Position numbers and translations under genes: made by a program
The notes under the pieces: model-generated
Database searches by the model: none
Told to the model about the DNA's origin: nothing
The model's input: the letters and a program-made list of their open reading frames with translations, nothing else
Shown here: positions 33,975-59,634 of the stretch, piece by piece
Numbering within the stretch: position 1 is the first letter of the stretch
How the letters are laid out: every line of letters begins with the position of its first letter
NCBI RefSeq assembly: GCF_027922305.1
Contig: NZ_BSFK01000007.1
Location: 1 to 64,000, forward strand
Length of the DNA: 64,000 nt
Reading direction: 5' to 3'
From: Methylopila jiangsuensis
GTDB lineage: Bacteria > Pseudomonadota > Alphaproteobacteria > Rhizobiales > Methylopilaceae

Positions 33975-33989
33975 GAACAAAATAGGAAC
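33946..33989 (+). promoter_or_regulatory. SOS promoter of imuA with LexA box
   Basis: GAAC-AAAATAG-GAAC at 33975-33989 fits the alphaproteobacterial LexA site, a direct repeat GTTC-N7-GTTC read on the other strand. It lies immediately downstream of a candidate promoter (TTGACT, 16 bp, TATTTT) and overlaps the imuA ribosome binding site AGGA, so LexA bound there would block transcription. Confidence 0.85.
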
Positions 33990-33995
33990 ATGAAG

Positions 33996-34787
33996 ATGGC
34001 GGCGCATGAAACCACATTGGGGGAGTTGAGGGCCGCCATCGCAGGGTGCGAGCAGGGCGGCGCGCTTCGTGGCGTGCGCCTGTTCGAGCTTGGAGCGCCG
34101 GAACTCGACGCGGGTCTTGGCGGGGGTCTCGCGCGCGGCGCGCTGCACGAGGTCTATGCGCGGGGCGCAGGGGACGCCGCAGCGGCGGCGGGCTTCGGAC
34201 TGGGGATCGCGTCGAGGGCCGCTGGGGGGCGCGCGCTGGCATGGGTTCGACAGGACCTCGTCGACGTCGAGACCGGCGAGCTCTATGGCGGCGGTCTTGC
34301 GGCCTTCGGCCTTGATCCCGGACGGGTTGTTCTCGTCAGGACAAGAAACGCGGTCGAGACGCTCCGCGCGTTGGAGGAGGCGGCCCGATGCGCGGCTCTG
34401 GGCGCCGCTGCGGTCGAGCTGTGGGGCGAGCCGGGGGCGCTGGACCTGAGGGCGAGCCGTCGCCTGTCGCTTGCGGCCAGGGCCTCGGGCGTCACCGTCG
34501 TCATGATCCGGCTGAACGCCAGCCCCGCTCCGAGCGCCGCAGCGAGCCGCTGGAGCGTCGCCGCGTCCGCATCCGCGCCGCTGGAGGCCGACGCTCCCGG
34601 CGGACCCGCATTCGAAGCCGTCCTGCTGCGCCACCGCGCCGGGCTCGCCGCCCGAAGCTGGCGACTGGAGTGGAACCGTGACCGCGCATCCTTCATCGCC
34701 CCGCCGCTATCTCGCTCTCTGGTTTCCGTTCCTGCCTACGGACAGAGAGCGGCGGACAGCGACGGAGCGTGGCGACGCGCCGGCTGA
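33996..34787 (+). CDS. imuA: ImuA, RecA/SulA-like mutagenesis accessory protein
   Basis: A 263-residue ImuA. Family features include the ELGAPELDAGLGGGLARGALHEV opening (23 residues; its core is GGGLARGALHEV), GRALAWVRQD and the SWRLEWNRD ending. ImuA is a RecA-related protein that helps load ImuB and DnaE2 for damage-induced mutagenesis. I prefer the ATG at 33996 because AGGA lies eight bases upstream; an ATG at 33990 would be too close to it. The 3' end overlaps imuB by 110 bases in a different frame. Confidence 0.92.
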   Translation: MAAHETTLGELRAAIAGCEQGGALRGVRLFELGAPELDAGLGGGLARGALHEVYARGAGDAAAAAGFGLGIASRAAGGRALAWVRQDLVDVETGELYGGGLAAFGLDPGRVVLVRTRNAVETLRALEEAARCAALGAAAVELWGEPGALDLRASRRLSLAARASGVTVVMIRLNASPAPSAAASRWSVAASASAPLEADAPGGPAFEAVLLRHRAGLAARSWRLEWNRDRASFIAPPLSRSLVSVPAYGQRAADSDGAWRRAG

Positions 34788-53654: not shown

Positions 53655-54911
53655 ATGACGAGCGCGTGCATGACCGCCGAAGCGTCTGGTCCAGACGAGA
53701 CGTCGCGCGAGGCGGCTGCTCCGGTCTCCGCCCCCTATGGCGCGGCGGCGGGCCAGATCGCGCTCGCGGTCGGCGGGCTCGCCATCGGCACCGGCGAATT
53801 CGCCGCCATGGGCGTGCTGCCGGAGGTGGCGAAGGACATCGGCGTCTCCATTCCCGAAGCCGGCCATCTGATCAGCGCCTATGCGCTCGGCGTGGTGGTC
53901 GGCGCGCCGCTGTTCGCGATCGCGCTGTCGTCCGCGCCGCGCCGCGCGCTGCTGATCGGACTCATGCTGTTCTTCGCGCTCGGCAATCTTGCGAGCGCGC
54001 TCGCGCCCGGCTACCTCGCCGTGAACGCGGGCCGGTTCGTCGCCGGCCTGCCGCACGGCGCTTATTTCGGCGTCGCGTCGCTGGTCGCCGCCTCGCTCGC
54101 GCCGCCGCACCGCCGCGCCCAGGCGGTCGGCAACGTGCTGCTCGGCCTCAGCGTCGCGAATGTGGTCGGCGTGCCGCTGGCCACATGGCTCGGACAGGCT
54201 TTCGGCTGGCGCGCCACCTTCGTGGCGGTGGCGGCGCTCGGGCTGCTGACGGCGCTCGCGGTCCGGATCTGCCTGCCGCGCATCGCCGCGCCGCAGGGCG
54301 CGAGCCCGGCGCGGGAGCTGACCGCCTTCCTGAAGCCTCAGGTCTGGCTGACGCTGGGCATCGCCGCCATCGGCTTCGGAGGCATGTTCGCGGTCTACAG
54401 CTATCTTGCTCCCACGCTGACCCACGTCACCGGCCTCGCTCCGGGGGCCGTGCCGGTGATGCTGGCGGTGCTCGGGTGCGGCATGATCGTGGGCAACATC
54501 GCCGGCGGCTACTTCGCCGACCGCGCGCTCAAGGCGACGATTCTCGGCGTGCTGGTGTGGAACGCGCTTGCGCTTGCGGCCTTCTCGGTCGCCTCGTCCT
54601 GGGTCTGGCTTGCGGCGCCGAACCTGTTTCTGATCGGCGGCTGCCTCGCCATCGGCCCTGCGCTGCAGACGCGTTTGATGGATGTGGCCGCCGACGCCCA
54701 GACGCTGGCCGCGGCGCTGAACCACTCCGCCTTCAATCTCGCCAACGCGCTCGGCGCCTGGCTTGGCGGACTGGCGCTGCTGTTCGGCTATGGCTGGACG
54801 GCTCCGTCCTGGGTGGGGGCCGCGCTGGCGCTCGGCGGCCTCGTGGTGGCGCTGGCCTCGTTCGGGCTGGAGCGCCGCGACGCGCATCGCCGTCAGGCCG
54901 CGTCCAGATAG
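53655..54911 (+). CDS. MFS transporter, DHA1 family (AraJ-like exporter)
   Basis: A 418-residue major facilitator with about 12 transmembrane segments. The first helix has GGLAIGTGEFAAMGVLPEVA (the DHA1 'GTGEF' motif). FVAGLPHGAYFGVASLVAA and RRAQAVGNVLLGLSVANVVG are typical of the AraJ/sugar-efflux branch. The start ATG at 53655 has CCGGAG upstream. The substrate is unknown. The end overlaps the 3' end of the minus-strand UdgX gene by 19 bases. Confidence 0.92.
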   Translation: MTSACMTAEASGPDETSREAAAPVSAPYGAAAGQIALAVGGLAIGTGEFAAMGVLPEVAKDIGVSIPEAGHLISAYALGVVVGAPLFAIALSSAPRRALLIGLMLFFALGNLASALAPGYLAVNAGRFVAGLPHGAYFGVASLVAASLAPPHRRAQAVGNVLLGLSVANVVGVPLATWLGQAFGWRATFVAVAALGLLTALAVRICLPRIAAPQGASPARELTAFLKPQVWLTLGIAAIGFGGMFAVYSYLAPTLTHVTGLAPGAVPVMLAVLGCGMIVGNIAGGYFADRALKATILGVLVWNALALAAFSVASSWVWLAAPNLFLIGGCLAIGPALQTRLMDVAADAQTLAAALNHSAFNLANALGAWLGGLALLFGYGWTAPSWVGAALALGGLVVALASFGLERRDAHRRQAASR

Positions 54912-56332
54912 GCGGCCGCCAGCCGCAGGTCGTCCACGAACCGGCCATACTCCCGCGCCTGCGCTTCCCGGTCCGGCAGGCGCAGCAGATAGGCGGGATG
55001 CACCGTGACCAGCGCCACGGAGCCATCCGGCAGCGTCTCCACGCGGCCGCGTCGCTCGCCAACCGTCACCGGCGCCCCGAGCACGGCGCGCGCGGCGGTG
55101 GCGCCCATGGCCACCACCAGCTTCGGCCGCACCAGCGCCCGCTCCCGGGCGAGCCAGGGCGCGCAGGCCCGAACCTCGTCGACCTTCGGCGAGCGATGCA
55201 GTCTGAACTTGCCGCGCGGCTCGAACTTGAAATGCTTGACCGCATTGGTGAGGTACAGCCGGTCGCGCGTCAGGCCCGCCTCCGCCGCGGCCCTGTCGAA
55301 CAGGGCGCCCGCGGGGCCGACGAAGGGGCGTCCCGCGATGTCCTCCCGGTCGCCGGGCTGCTCGCCCACCACCATGATGGACGCGTCCTTCGGCCCTTCG
55401 CCCGGCACCGCCTGGGTCGCGGGCGCCCACAACGGACAGGCGCGGCAGCCGTCGATCTCCTCATGCAGCACGGCGAGCGAGTCCGGCTGGCCCACAGGGG
55501 CCGGCGCTCCCTCAGGCGTTCGCAGGCGGGTCGGATTGCGTTTCGCCGGGGTCGGGGCCGCCTGGGTCATCGCTTCGGTCGCCTGTCCGGCCTTGGCGAT
55601 GAGAGACGGAATGAGCGCGGCCTCGGGCAGGTTGCGCCAGTACTTGCGCGGCATTTCCGACCGCATGGCGGCCACCTTCAGCCGCGCGGGATTGAAGATG
55701 CTGGCGTAATAGGCGCGCCACACATCCTCCATGGCGTCGTCGGCCTGCGCGGCGGCGCGTCGGGCGCCGGCGCCGAAGGTCAGCTCCCGGCCGTCCCAGA
55801 ACGCGGAGCGCTCCGGCGTCAGAATGGCCCACCGCATGGCGGCGAAGCGGCGGACGAAGAACGGCGCGGTCGCTTCCAGAATGTGATGCTCGGGTTCGAA
55901 CCAGGACGCGAAGCTGCCGTCGCCCGCGGCCCGAAACCGCACGAAGGCGGTCATCTTGTGGGCGTCGCGCCGCACCGCCTTGGCCAAGGCGGTGGCTCTG
56001 GCCACGTCGGGATCAGCCGCGTCGTCCAGCGCCGATCGTTCGGCTGCCACGCGCCGCAGCAGCCGGTAGCAGAGATCGAACCGGGTGGCATCGGAATGCA
56101 GCAGCGCGCGCTCCGCAAGCTCCACGAACGCGCGGGGGATGGCGCGCGTGGGCGCCGGATCCTCACAACTTTCCACGTCCTCGCCCGCGTCCGCGAACAG
56201 ATCGCCCGCCTCGCGCCCAACGCGCCAGATGACGTCCGCAGGCTCCACCTCGCGCGCGAGCAGCGACCGCGCCGCCGCGCGCCAGCCGGCGACGTCGGCG
56301 TCGTGGGCGAGCGTCACGCGCCGGGGCGTCAC
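54893..56332 (-). CDS. DUF4130-UdgX fusion, uracil-DNA binding repair protein
   Basis: A 479-residue two-domain protein starting at a GTG. The first 260 residues match the TIGR03915/DUF4130 type of putative DNA repair protein (LAKAVRRDAHKMTAFVRFRA, FNPARLKVAAMRSEMPRKYW). The C-terminal part is a family 4-like uracil-DNA glycosylase of UdgX type: a Cys pair near CRACPLW, GEQPGDREDIAGRPFVGPAG (about 320) and TNAVKHFKFEPRG. The R-loop reads KFRLHRSP where UdgX has KRRIHKRP; the histidine that bonds covalently to the abasic site is kept. It overlaps the upstream radical SAM gene by four bases and shares its LexA-controlled promoter. Confidence 0.93.
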   Translation of the reverse strand: MTPRRVTLAHDADVAGWRAAARSLLAREVEPADVIWRVGREAGDLFADAGEDVESCEDPAPTRAIPRAFVELAERALLHSDATRFDLCYRLLRRVAAERSALDDAADPDVARATALAKAVRRDAHKMTAFVRFRAAGDGSFASWFEPEHHILEATAPFFVRRFAAMRWAILTPERSAFWDGRELTFGAGARRAAAQADDAMEDVWRAYYASIFNPARLKVAAMRSEMPRKYWRNLPEAALIPSLIAKAGQATEAMTQAAPTPAKRNPTRLRTPEGAPAPVGQPDSLAVLHEEIDGCRACPLWAPATQAVPGEGPKDASIMVVGEQPGDREDIAGRPFVGPAGALFDRAAAEAGLTRDRLYLTNAVKHFKFEPRGKFRLHRSPKVDEVRACAPWLARERALVRPKLVVAMGATAARAVLGAPVTVGERRGRVETLPDGSVALVTVHPAYLLRLPDREAQAREYGRFVDDLRLAAAYLDAA

Positions 56333-57561
56333 AGGCCGAGCGCCAGCTGGCGCGGCGGCGGAACCAGCCGGTCGCGCAGGTTGGCGGCGTCGAGGACGCT
56401 GACGCGCGGGCGATGGTCGATGGTCGCCAGAAACGGCAGAGCCTTGCCAAGCGGCGCCCGCATCCGCTTCAGATCCTCGACGCGCAGCGCCCGGAACCTG
56501 CGGGCGCTGAGGATGCGCTCCACGGTGGTGCGCCCAAGTCCGGGCGTCCGCAGCAGCTCCTCGCGGGAGGCGCGGTTGACGTCGAGCGGAAACAGGCCGC
56601 GATGGCGCAGCGCCCAGGCGAGCTTGGGATCGAGCGCGAGGTCGAGCATGCCGTCAGCTTCGGTGATCTCGTGAACCGAGAAGCCATAGAACCGCATCAG
56701 CCAGTCGGCCTGGTAGAGCCGATGCTCGCGCATGAGCGGCGGGGCTTTGGACGGCAGCCGGGAACTGGCGTCCGGGATGGGGCTGAAGGCGGAGTAGTAG
56801 ACCCGCTTCAGCCGGTAGGACCCGTAGAGGTTGGCGCTGGTCTCAAGCGTCGCGCGATCGTCGCTGTCGTCCGCGCCGATAATCATCTGCGTGCTCTGGC
56901 CGGCGGGCGAGAACCGGGGCGCGCGCGCCTCCGCCTTCGCCTCCTCGATGCGTCCGCGCAGCTGCGCCATGGTCCGGCGCACCGCGCGGGCGTCCTTCTC
57001 CGGCGCCAGCTGGGACAGTCCGGCTTCCGTCGGCAGCTCCAGATTGATCGAGAGGCGGTCCGCGTAGAGCCCGGCCTCGGCGAGCAGCGCGGGATCGGCG
57101 TCCGGGATGGTCTTCAGATGGATGTAGCCGCGAAAGCCATGGTCCAGCCGCAGGGATTTCGCCACCCGAACCACCTGCTCCATGGTGTAGTCCGCGCTGC
57201 GGACGATGCCGGACGAAAGGAAGAGGCCCTCGATGTAGTTGCGGCGGTAGAAATCGAGCGTGAGGTCGACCACCTCCTTCACCGTGAAACGGGCCCGGCG
57301 CACGTTGCTCGAGGCGCGGTTGACGCAATACAGGCAGTCGAAGGCGCAGGCGTTGGTCAGCAAAATCTTGAGCAGCGAGATGCAGCGCCCGTCCGGCGCG
57401 TAGGAATGGCAGATCCCGGCGCCTTCGGTGGAGCCCAGGCCCTGCGCCTGGCCGCCGGGGCGGGCCGGGCCGGAATGACGGCGATCCGTCCCGCTCGACG
57501 CGCAGGACGCATCGTATTTCGCGGCGTCGGCGAGAATCGACAGCTTGACGGCGAGGTCCAC
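56329..57561 (-). CDS. Putative DNA repair radical SAM protein (TIGR03916)
   Basis: A 410-residue radical SAM enzyme starting at a GTG behind GGGGGAG. The iron-sulfur motif CxxxCxxC is at Cys72, Cys76 and Cys79 (NACAFDCLYC), with extra cysteines at 51 and 60. RGYIHLKTIPDADPALL and DRLSINLELPTE lie in the barrel. The C-terminal region holds a helix-hairpin-helix (RASREELLRTPGLGRTTVER), a DNA-binding fold. The family travels with DUF4130/UdgX and is predicted to act on DNA, but its chemistry is unknown. It is the first gene of the SOS operon. Confidence 0.92.
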   Translation of the reverse strand: MDLAVKLSILADAAKYDASCASSGTDRRHSGPARPGGQAQGLGSTEGAGICHSYAPDGRCISLLKILLTNACAFDCLYCVNRASSNVRRARFTVKEVVDLTLDFYRRNYIEGLFLSSGIVRSADYTMEQVVRVAKSLRLDHGFRGYIHLKTIPDADPALLAEAGLYADRLSINLELPTEAGLSQLAPEKDARAVRRTMAQLRGRIEEAKAEARAPRFSPAGQSTQMIIGADDSDDRATLETSANLYGSYRLKRVYYSAFSPIPDASSRLPSKAPPLMREHRLYQADWLMRFYGFSVHEITEADGMLDLALDPKLAWALRHRGLFPLDVNRASREELLRTPGLGRTTVERILSARRFRALRVEDLKRMRAPLGKALPFLATIDHRPRVSVLDAANLRDRLVPPPRQLALGL

Positions 57562-57589
57562 GATCGCTCCCCCTCATTAGCGTTATGTA

Positions 57590-57620
57590 TTTCGTATGTT
57601 CATTAAATGTTCTTGTCAAC
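57590..57620 (-). promoter_or_regulatory. SOS promoter of the radical SAM-UdgX operon with LexA box
   Basis: GTTC-ATTAAAT-GTTC at 57598-57612 is a textbook alphaproteobacterial LexA box (GTTC-N7-GTTC). On the minus strand it lies between a TTGACA -35 box (57613-57618) and a TACGAA -10 region 17 bp away, so LexA would sit on the promoter. The start codon is 37 bp downstream. Confidence 0.88.
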
Positions 57621-58024: not shown

Positions 58025-59185
58025 ATGACGCCGGCGATGGACGACTTCACGTTTTACGAGTTCTTCGCCGGCGGCGGCATGGCGCGCGCCGGGCTCGGGG
58101 TCGGCTGGCGCTGTTTGTTCGCGAACGACCTCAGCCCGAAGAAGGCTGCGGCCTACCGCGCCAACTGGGGCGATGCGGATCTCCACGTGGGCGACGTGCA
58201 TGCGCTGCGTCCGGACCAGGTGCCCGGACAGGCGGATGTGGCCTGGGGGTCGTTCCCTTGCCAGGATCTGTCGCTCGCCGGCGCCGGCGCTGGGCTTGAC
58301 GGCGCGCGATCGGGCGCGTTCTGGGGCTTCTGGGCTCTGATCGAGGCGCTGGGCGTCGAGGGACGGGCGCCGCGGGCGCTGGTGCTGGAGAATGTCTGCG
58401 GCGCGCTGACCTCGCGCGGAGGCCGTGATTTCGCGGCCATCGGCGAGGCGCTCGCCGGCGCCGGCTACCGCTTCGGCGCGCTGGTGATCGACGCGGCGCT
58501 GTTCGTGCCCCAGTCGCGGCCGCGGCTGTTCATCGTCGCGTTCCATGAGGCGGCGGGCGTGGGGAGCGTCGCTTCGGGGGTCTCGCCCCGGGAGCCATGG
58601 CATCCGAAGGCGCTGGTGGTCGCCCGGGAGCGCCTGAGCGACGAGGCCAAGCGCCGCTGGCTCTGGCTCGAGCCCGCGGCGCCGCGGGCCAATGTCGCCC
58701 GCCTCGACGATATGATCGAGGACGCGCCGACGGGGGTGCGCTGGCGGTCGGCGGAGCAGACGGAGGCGCTTCTTGCGTTGATGGCGCCGCTGCATCGGGC
58801 GCGGGTGGCGGCCGCGGTGTCGTCCGGCGAGCGGCGCGTGGGCACGGTCTATCGGCGCATGAGGCTGGACGCGTCCGGCGCCCGGGTCCAGCGGGCCGAG
58901 GCGCGCTTCGACGGCGTCGCCGGCTGTCTCCGCACCCCCGCGGGCGGGTCCAGCCGGCAGACGCTGCTGGTGATCGAGAACGGCGTCGTGCGCAGCCGGC
59001 TGCTCTCGGCGCGGGAGGCGGCGCGGCTCATGGGCTTGCCGGACGATTATGTTTTGCCGGCGAAGTACAACGACGCTTACAAGCTCGCCGGCGACGGCGT
59101 GGCGGCGCCGGTGGTGCGGTTCCTGGCGGAGCAGGTGCTGGAGCCGGCGCTTGGGCGGCCGACGCCGGCGCGGGCTGCGGGGTGA
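58025..59185 (+). CDS. dcm: DNA cytosine-5 methyltransferase
   Basis: A 386-residue C5-methyltransferase. Motif I is FFAGGGMARAGL; motif IV is FPCQDLSLAG with catalytic Cys79; motif VI is ENV at 122-124; motif VIII is PQSRPR with Arg165 and Arg167; motifs IX and X (AARLMGLPDDYVLP and GDGVAAPV) are intact. The target recognition region lies between about 220 and 310; the site cannot be read from sequence. The stop overlaps vsr (GTGA). No restriction enzyme is adjacent, so it looks like an orphan, regulatory or housekeeping methylase. Confidence 0.94.
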   Translation: MTPAMDDFTFYEFFAGGGMARAGLGVGWRCLFANDLSPKKAAAYRANWGDADLHVGDVHALRPDQVPGQADVAWGSFPCQDLSLAGAGAGLDGARSGAFWGFWALIEALGVEGRAPRALVLENVCGALTSRGGRDFAAIGEALAGAGYRFGALVIDAALFVPQSRPRLFIVAFHEAAGVGSVASGVSPREPWHPKALVVARERLSDEAKRRWLWLEPAAPRANVARLDDMIEDAPTGVRWRSAEQTEALLALMAPLHRARVAAAVSSGERRVGTVYRRMRLDASGARVQRAEARFDGVAGCLRTPAGGSSRQTLLVIENGVVRSRLLSAREAARLMGLPDDYVLPAKYNDAYKLAGDGVAAPVVRFLAEQVLEPALGRPTPARAAG

Positions 59186-59634
59186 CGACGGAGGCCCCGG
59201 AGCGCCGCTCGGCCATCATGCGCGCGGTGAGGGCGCGCGACACCCGGCCCGAAATGCTGGTGCGCCGCGCCGCGCATGGCCTCGGCTACCGGTTTCGACT
59301 GCAGGCGAAGCATCTGCCCGGGCGGCCCGATCTGGCGTTCCCGTCCCGGAAGAAGGTGATCTTCGTGCACGGCTGCTTCTGGCACGGGCACGACTGCGCG
59401 CGCGGCGCGCGGGCGCCCAAGACCAACGCCGAGTACTGGCGGCGGAAGATCGCCCGCAACATGGTCAGGGACGCGCACGCGCTCGCGGCGCTGGCCGATC
59501 TCGGCTGGGACGCGCTCGTGCTGTGGGAATGCGAGCTCAAGCCGCCCGCGGCGCTTGCGGAGCGCCTCGTCGCCTTTCTGGGGAAACGCGGAGCGCCGTC
59601 GTCGCAGGACGACAGCGCCCCTTCCGGCATGTGA
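59182..59634 (+). CDS. vsr: Very short patch repair endonuclease
   Basis: A 150-residue Vsr starting at a GTG within the dcm stop. SAIMRAVRARDTRPEMLVRR opens the family fold; LPGRPDLAFP holds the catalytic aspartate; HGCFWHGHDC gives zinc-binding and active-site residues; LGWDALVLWECEL closes it. Vsr nicks T:G mismatches formed when 5-methylcytosine deaminates, starting repair back to C:G. Translational coupling to dcm ties repair to the methylase that creates the risk. Confidence 0.94.
   Translation: MTTEAPERRSAIMRAVRARDTRPEMLVRRAAHGLGYRFRLQAKHLPGRPDLAFPSRKKVIFVHGCFWHGHDCARGARAPKTNAEYWRRKIARNMVRDAHALAALADLGWDALVLWECELKPPAALAERLVAFLGKRGAPSSQDDSAPSGM

Follow-up and report, generated by a model that had tools for sequence, protein, structure and literature searches.

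To our knowledge, very few radical S-adenosylmethionine (SAM) enzymes that repair DNA have been described, and the standard example is spore photoproduct lyase (SplB). A figure legend in PMC3765255 presents DUF4130 as a predicted mutagenesis-related enzyme associated with an SplB-like radical SAM protein and a uracil-DNA glycosylase (UDG), and extracts of PMC8565304 describe LexA-type control of COG1573-COG4277 in Bacteroidetes and cite it for Verrucomicrobia and Alphaproteobacteria (Caulobacter crescentus). Both the trio of genes (PMC3765255) and the control of the UDG/COG4277 operon by LexA (PMC8565304) have already been published. The operon described here, in a 64,000-nucleotide stretch of the Methylopila jiangsuensis genome (the window), encodes a radical SAM protein of family TIGR03916 and a fusion of DUF4130 (TIGR03915) with a UdgX-type glycosylase (TIGR03914). 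We take COG4277 to be the same family as TIGR03916. All three families of the PMC3765255 set are far over their cut-offs in the window, whose proteins show nothing that sets them apart. The operon of PMC8565304 is similar in that a UDG gene and its partner are jointly controlled by LexA in a single operon, although it is treated there as a uracil base-excision system. The window operon is nothing unusual within a gene set whose SOS control was already known; what is added here is a division into core pair and add-on, an extra cysteine set in the radical SAM protein, several operator types and a Lysobacteraceae operator.

Comparison of sequences makes it highly probable that the radical SAM protein and DUF4130 form a core pair, to which UdgX reads as an add-on gained or lost many times. 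The features of the operon are as follows.

54893..56332, minus strand: DUF4130-UdgX fusion gene, 479 aa (open reading frame; TIGR03915, TIGR03914, Pfam DUF4130 and UDG)
54920..55615, minus strand: UdgX domain, TIGR03914, residues 240-471 (profile; closest solved structures are M. smegmatis-type UdgX entries)
55196..55210, minus strand: UdgX R-loop KFRLH, with H379 equivalent to H109 of M. smegmatis UdgX (alignment; H379 and R377 in 68/68 rows)
55613..56332, minus strand: TIGR03915/DUF4130 region, residues 1-240 (profiles; 23 invariant columns in 50 rows; model with predicted local distance difference test score, pLDDT, of 88 and predicted template modelling score, pTM, of 0.82)
56329..56332, minus strand: stop/start overlap GTGA, 4 nucleotides (sequence)
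56329..57561, minus strand: radical SAM gene, TIGR03916, 410 aa (556.8 bits against a cut-off of 343.5; Pfam Radical_SAM; model pLDDT 83)
56494..56586, minus strand: helix-hairpin-helix of the radical SAM protein, residues 326-356 (HHH_3, E 0.00039, under the Pfam gathering score)
57325..57348, minus strand: radical SAM CX3CX2C motif, C72, C76, C79 (123/123 rows)
57382..57504, minus strand: radical SAM stretch with the cysteine set C20 ... C51-H52 ... C60 (123/123 aligned rows)
57598..57612, minus strand: LexA box GAACATTTAATGAAC, alphaproteobacterial GAAC-N7-GAAC type (pattern; same class elsewhere in the genome; relatives)
57614..57619, minus strand: TTGACA, candidate -35 hexamer (sequence)

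An earlier note, made from the sequence alone, had placed the operon at 54893..57620 and had named the families TIGR03916, DUF4130 and UdgX. Both frames are there and the names are correct, with every curated cut-off exceeded: the fusion protein scores 230.6 bits for TIGR03915 (cut-off 112.25), 315.2 bits for TIGR03914 (cut-off 189.95) and 145.3 bits for Pfam DUF4130 (against 27), and its gene adjoins the TIGR03916 gene. The gene overlap that the note reported is the 4-nucleotide GTGA in the sequence, from which translational coupling of the two genes is likely. The nearest named relatives of the radical SAM protein are Methylopilaceae, with 82% identity to Hansschlegelia.

Core pair and optional UdgX

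The radical SAM protein, DUF4130 and UdgX were searched for in what is apparently one and the same sample of 200 genomes. The radical SAM family is over its cut-off in 31 of these, and DUF4130 is found in those same 31 plus one 35-residue remnant. UdgX is over its cut-off in 29 genomes, comprising 23 of the 31 with the pair and six without it, which leaves eight pair genomes without a UdgX at that level. Three of the six UdgX-only genomes were examined (L204, L206 and L208), and in each a standalone UdgX carries a DUF4130 tail of 15-35 residues, the radical SAM gene and most of DUF4130 being gone. On this sequence evidence the tails read as footprints of the loss of the radical SAM protein and DUF4130.

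The same division is seen locus by locus. In a named set consisting of the best 80 of 587 loci, DUF4130 lies downstream of the radical SAM gene on the same strand in all 80; with start codons chosen by script, an overlap of the two genes is seen in 52, a distance of up to 60 bp in 16 and a wider one in 12, the largest gap being ~1.3 kb. UdgX was not found in 13 of the 80 loci, and the pairs of Bacteroidota and Bacillota have no adjacent UdgX by annotation or by tblastn. For a tree of 82 radical SAM proteins we omitted L109, L130 and L132 (two run off the contig and one has an odd end) and added four far-relative pairs, two from plasmid and two from phage-collection records, none of which gave a UdgX match. 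The UdgX label, for which L171 was counted as fused though its two parts sit in different frames, changes 11 times on this tree, and eight of the changes are forced by starred branches. Together, the co-occurrence counts, the locus survey and the tree changes point to the radical SAM protein and DUF4130 as the unit and to UdgX as the add-on. Where the earlier note took all the parts as one unit, these data set apart a core of the first two, with UdgX optional.

The radical SAM family is patchy, being over its cut-off in 12 of 240 genomes of the class. A family search also gives a match in Caulobacter crescentus, which may lie under the cut-off. On a gut phage-collection contig (L213:3983-8475), the radical SAM gene and a confirmed DUF4130 gene are followed, 12 bp on, by an XPD/DinG-type helicase gene (Helicase_C_2, DEAD_2), which hints that the pair may be carried along with a helicase of the excision-repair type. 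A record named 'Acinetobacter phage MD-2021a' that contains the pair (L212) was set aside: next to the pair it has glyS, glyQ and further housekeeping genes, which give it the look of a mislabelled chromosome contig, and it does not count as evidence that phages carry the pair.

Operators upstream of the operon

The window box GAACATTTAATGAAC fits GAAC-N7-GAAC and lies 1 nucleotide downstream of TTGACA. Genome-wide there are 96 matches to this pattern, compared with 30 to its backwards version. We inspected 20 genomic box regions, chosen mainly for AT-rich spacers; 13 received no assignment and seven have a repair or replication gene downstream, the boxed genes being lexA, ssb with a divergent uvrA, two ImuA-like genes, a weak RmuC match, a PA0069-family radical SAM gene and the gene for DNA polymerase III alpha, the last 234 bp from its box. 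Another box is found 113 bp upstream of a recA match in the same genome.

The box was then compared among relatives in a class set of 37 long-match loci (the window and 36 others), 29 of them in the class and eight outside it. L062, which is truncated, and the weak matches L063-L072, which score under the cut-off, were omitted, and one more full match, G368, has no locus in the set. A box is present within 150 bp upstream in 28 of the 29 class loci, the window being one of them, compared with none within the initial 1000 bp of the gene itself and two further upstream. Control patterns with spacings of 5, 6 and 8 are found close upstream in none of the 29, and a spacing of 9 and the backwards pattern in one each. 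The spacers of the boxes differ among relatives. In the named set, whose species may overlap with those of the 37 loci, the box stands at the operon in 59 of 65 Alphaproteobacteria, and the backwards control is found in none of the 80 loci; the 80 include three that lack a class label, all of which have the alphaproteobacterial box and are excluded from the 65.

The earlier note's LexA box is judged real because of its place, the same class of box before lexA, ssb/uvrA and recA, and its conservation in relatives; LexA almost certainly controls the operon, to go by this comparison. The pattern is not rarer than chance within the window, where two matches are found against 1.56 expected, and on that count alone the box might be fortuitous. 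Its position close upstream in 28 of 29 class loci and in 59 of 65 named relatives, with differing spacers, brings the probability of a chance match close to nil, and we rejected it.

Operators of other types occur outside the class. The pattern CTGT-N8-ACAG, which we take to be the E. coli-type box, is perfect in six of the eight outside loci of the 37-locus set, and TGTTC-N4-GAACA, presumably the LexA motif of Verrucomicrobia, lies upstream in both Verrucomicrobiota. Among the three betaproteobacterial loci, CTGT-N8-ACAG is present in one and off by a mismatch in another, and the third has none of the types tried. The Caulobacter LexA box is given as GTTC-N7-GTTC in PMC12700426, whose main text names neither radical SAM nor uracil nor splB.

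In Lysobacteraceae the operator is a different and rare palindrome, GTCTCA-N5-TGAGAC, which stands just upstream of the radical SAM operon in five of seven gammaproteobacterial loci, all five from this family. Across four genomes (those of L113, L150 and L170, and G320) it occurs nine times and its backwards control not at all, and it precedes the radical SAM gene in all four, a helicase gene in three and uvrA in two. Of 60 genomes from the family of G320, 41 have the palindrome, with 76 sites in sum and none for the control. We inspected 30 of these loci, one per genome: the helicase gene follows 11 of the sites and the radical SAM gene five, whereas uvrA follows none; the remaining 14 lie elsewhere, including sites before recA (one genome), dnaB (194 bp away) and the CRISPR gene csy1. 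The dnaB and csy1 sites indicate that not every palindrome marks a damage gene. In the helicase, DEAD and Helicase_C domains are joined by a winged-helix match to HRQ1 that is sub-threshold and was made on a truncated protein. Extracts of PMC12458937 place the YprA/MrfA helicases in an excision repair related to mitomycin; the Lysobacteraceae helicase, of this general type, has the same palindrome as the radical SAM operon, although the shared operator is the only link. The recurrence of the palindrome before the radical SAM operon, uvrA, the YprA/HRQ1-like helicase and once recA (L217-L225, site position 1501; 60 genomes) suggests a possible small damage regulon, whose regulator may be an unusual LexA. 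A thin search of open-licence literature, judged by title, found no paper on this palindrome.

Three of the boxed genes of the M. jiangsuensis genome named above are placed as follows. An ImuA-like gene of the window (at 33990; 33975-34787) has its own box of the same type, as has a second ImuA-like gene at C7:279038, and both score under the ImuA cut-off. A second radical SAM protein, of the PA0069 family, starts at an alphaproteobacterial LexA-type box (L043, G000:C10:426996).

Conserved residues, folds and neighbours

The CX3CX2C motif of the radical SAM protein (C72, C76 and C79) is present in all 123 aligned rows, some of which may come from the same species and from which the divergent L211 was kept out. 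Equally invariant are C20, C51, H52 and C60, identical in all 123 rows (window included), among them Bacteroidota and Bacillota, and C20, C51 and C60 are a candidate auxiliary Fe-S site. The fold matches (50 PDB entries listed of 1294) include HydE, MiaB, HydG, viperin, BioB, lipoyl synthase and others, of which MiaB, BioB and lipoyl synthase, among the best matches, have auxiliary clusters. Spore photoproduct lyase is absent among the 50 listed, and the sequence search returned no spore photoproduct lyase and one weak HydG-type match; a simple identification of the protein as spore photoproduct lyase was rejected on these two grounds. What it shares with SplB is that a radical SAM protein is tied by context to SOS repair, and it differs in having the extra cysteine set and a helix-hairpin-helix tail. 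The divergent radical SAM gene of Gemmatirosa (L211) lacks the N-terminal cysteine set, and no DUF4130 was found in the 9 kb covered by a search that finds far-relative DUF4130 only at low identity. No second case like it appeared in the plasmid search (among 12 of 158 records listed) or in the class search, so the tie between the cysteine set and DUF4130 stands on a single case.

The DUF4130 alignment (A2), made of 49 of the 80 named loci and the window, has 23 invariant columns in its 50 rows, many of them polar, including D107, H125, R132, W144, E146, H149, R162, W168, T172, N214 and R217. The model is good, as the scores given above indicate. By title and general class, 29 of the 50 listed PDB matches resemble DHH phosphoesterases such as RecJ, NrnA and family II pyrophosphatase, with E-values no better than 0.016. 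A DHH Pfam search of the 50 DUF4130 members gave no match. With neither a significant fold match nor a DHH Pfam match, DUF4130 as a DHH phosphoesterase was rejected as a claim and kept as a hint.

The UdgX domain has motif A as GEQPGD at residue 323 and H379 within KFRLH. E324, Q325, N363, R377 and H379 are found in 68 of 68 rows and H445 and R451 in 67 (one gap), and the equivalents of M. smegmatis UdgX E52, Q53, N91, R107, H109, H178 and R184 are all present. The window domain differs from that protein in being fused behind DUF4130 and in having KFRLH for KRRIH and, in motif B, HPAYLLR for HPSSLLR. The loop is thus not an exact KRRIH: it keeps K, R and H, and its second position varies, being R in 46 of 68 rows. 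We do not hold this against UdgX membership because R107 and H109 are the conserved residues in PMC10359453, where H109, activated by E52, bonds to C1' of the abasic sugar. Given this mechanism and the conserved residues, the window UdgX very probably keeps its cross-linking capacity. In nine of 67 relatives (L111, L112, L116, L135, L147, L149, L153, L156 and L174) none of the three aligned Fe-S cysteines of UdgX is left and Tyr stands in place of the third, with the cross-linking residues intact; these are perhaps UdgX proteins without their cluster. PMC10776899, on UDGX, does not mention radical, operon, fusion, DUF or SOS.

Beside the window operon lie overlapping frames for a cytosine-5 DNA methyltransferase and a Vsr mismatch endonuclease (58025-59634). 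An imuA-like gene occurs in 12 of the 80 loci (flank up to 4 kb) and is divergent next door in eight. No recurrent methyltransferase was recognised by eye in the 25 neighbour clusters listed for the 80 loci, a weak test given many spurious frames. PADLOC gave no match for either operon protein, and an anti-phage system is accordingly not supported. In published work, a radical SAM gene, perhaps of another family than TIGR03916, is tabulated among the LexA regulon genes of Streptomyces venezuelae (PMC9380542), and Caulobacter is reported to have four UDG-family genes (PMC1839093). No paper linking UdgX with radical SAM was found in a thin search of the open-licence literature.

Proposed function and its rivals

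Our best explanation of the whole, about which we are evenly divided, is a damage-induced radical DNA-repair pair with a detachable module that would cap uracil-derived or abasic sites. RecA-driven cleavage of LexA would free the box, and both overlapping genes would be made together. The core would be a DNA-directed radical SAM protein with its CX3CX2C cluster, a second cysteine set probably holding an auxiliary Fe-S cluster and a helix-hairpin-helix tail, and DUF4130 would be its DNA- or lesion-handling partner. The two would perform a radical reaction on damaged DNA that either reverses the damage directly or trims a damaged base or sugar; such radical action on DNA is as much in doubt as in favour. 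UdgX would excise uracil, remain bonded to the abasic site through H379, cap that site and hold the pair there during SOS translesion synthesis. The families, the overlap, damage-type operators in several clades, the pairing, the optional UdgX, the UdgX residues and the cysteine set are read from sequence; from them we infer DNA as the substrate of the radical SAM protein, the auxiliary cluster, the role of DUF4130 and the capping role. As to the damage-induced repair system of the earlier note, its LexA control is strongly supported by comparison, and its repair role is a fair reading of regulation and context.

Several observations weigh against this explanation. The cysteine loop of the radical SAM protein is modelled poorly, with residues 22-32 and 37-47 under pLDDT 50, and the helix-hairpin-helix tail that the earlier note described is seen by HHH_3 at 20.9 against a Pfam gathering score of 27. 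DUF4130 has no fold match at E 0.001 in PDB (best E 0.016) or among viral models, and the printed template modelling (TM) scores are at most 0.35. The UdgX label hardly clusters on the tree, equally few changes being needed in 32 of 500 shuffles, and the tree itself is a quick one with long branches. A virus-collection contig (L215, 3848-5788) has the radical SAM gene and then a hemerythrin gene, with no DUF4130 found in the 6 kb covered. Among the operators, the exact box is missing in six of the 65 Alphaproteobacteria (five one mismatch off, one two off), none of the damage-operator types tried was found in two Rhodanobacteraceae and one of three Betaproteobacteria, and the loci compared are related and hence not independent. 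The box was also said to lie inside a TTGACA promoter; the hexamer is in place, but a consensus scan upstream of the operon found no sigma-70-like promoter.

Another reading makes the radical SAM protein a maturase that modifies DUF4130 or builds its cofactor, the matured DUF4130 being the repair enzyme, for example a phosphoesterase-like one. The one-to-one pairing of mostly overlapping genes, the invariant D, H, E, R and N residues of DUF4130 and the 29 DHH-type phosphoesterases among its 50 listed matches (classed by title and general class) would fit; however, those matches fall short of E 0.001 with TM-scores no higher than 0.35, the DHH Pfam is absent from the 50 members, and the helix-hairpin-helix tail, sub-threshold as it is, suggests that the radical SAM protein itself meets DNA. 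We consider this reading rather unlikely.

Less probable again is a system whose point is UdgX, capping uracil-derived abasic sites, with the radical SAM protein and DUF4130 only resolving or processing the His-DNA cross-link. The fusion would tether DUF4130 to the cross-link, the chemistry residues of UdgX are invariant and imuA-like genes lie near 12 of 80 operons, yet no UdgX reaches the cut-off in eight of the 31 genomes with the pair, Bacteroidota and Bacillota pairs have none beside them by annotation or tblastn, and UdgX survives without the pair; we regard it as improbable. Similarly improbable, in our judgement, is a non-repair role such as DNA base modification or anti-phage defence that is merely SOS-timed. 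The methyltransferase and Vsr genes next door in the window and the patchiness of the family (12 of 240 class genomes over cut-off) would suit it, but PADLOC matches neither protein, the neighbour clusters listed show no recurrent methyltransferase (a weak test), and damage-type operators recur.

Under the radical DNA-repair explanation, we advance tentatively, with more doubt than confidence, that the radical SAM protein and DUF4130 constitute an undescribed kind of DNA repair enzyme, with a second, three-cysteine Fe-S site and a dedicated partner, spread over several phyla and placed under each lineage's own damage operator; in Lysobacteraceae the operator GTCTCA-N5-TGAGAC would unite it in a small regulon with uvrA, a YprA/HRQ1-type helicase and recA, the last in one genome or more. 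Were this so, the pair would stand beside nucleotide-excision or mitomycin-type repair and not uracil repair. The comparative data make a vague triad testable: the radical SAM protein and DUF4130 would be expected to share a phenotype, UdgX to have a separate and dispensable one and the three cysteines to hold the second cluster. The palindrome gives a new way into the damage response of Lysobacteraceae. If the pair repairs DNA, it would be a second, widespread DNA-repairing radical SAM enzyme, in plain sight under 'putative' names.

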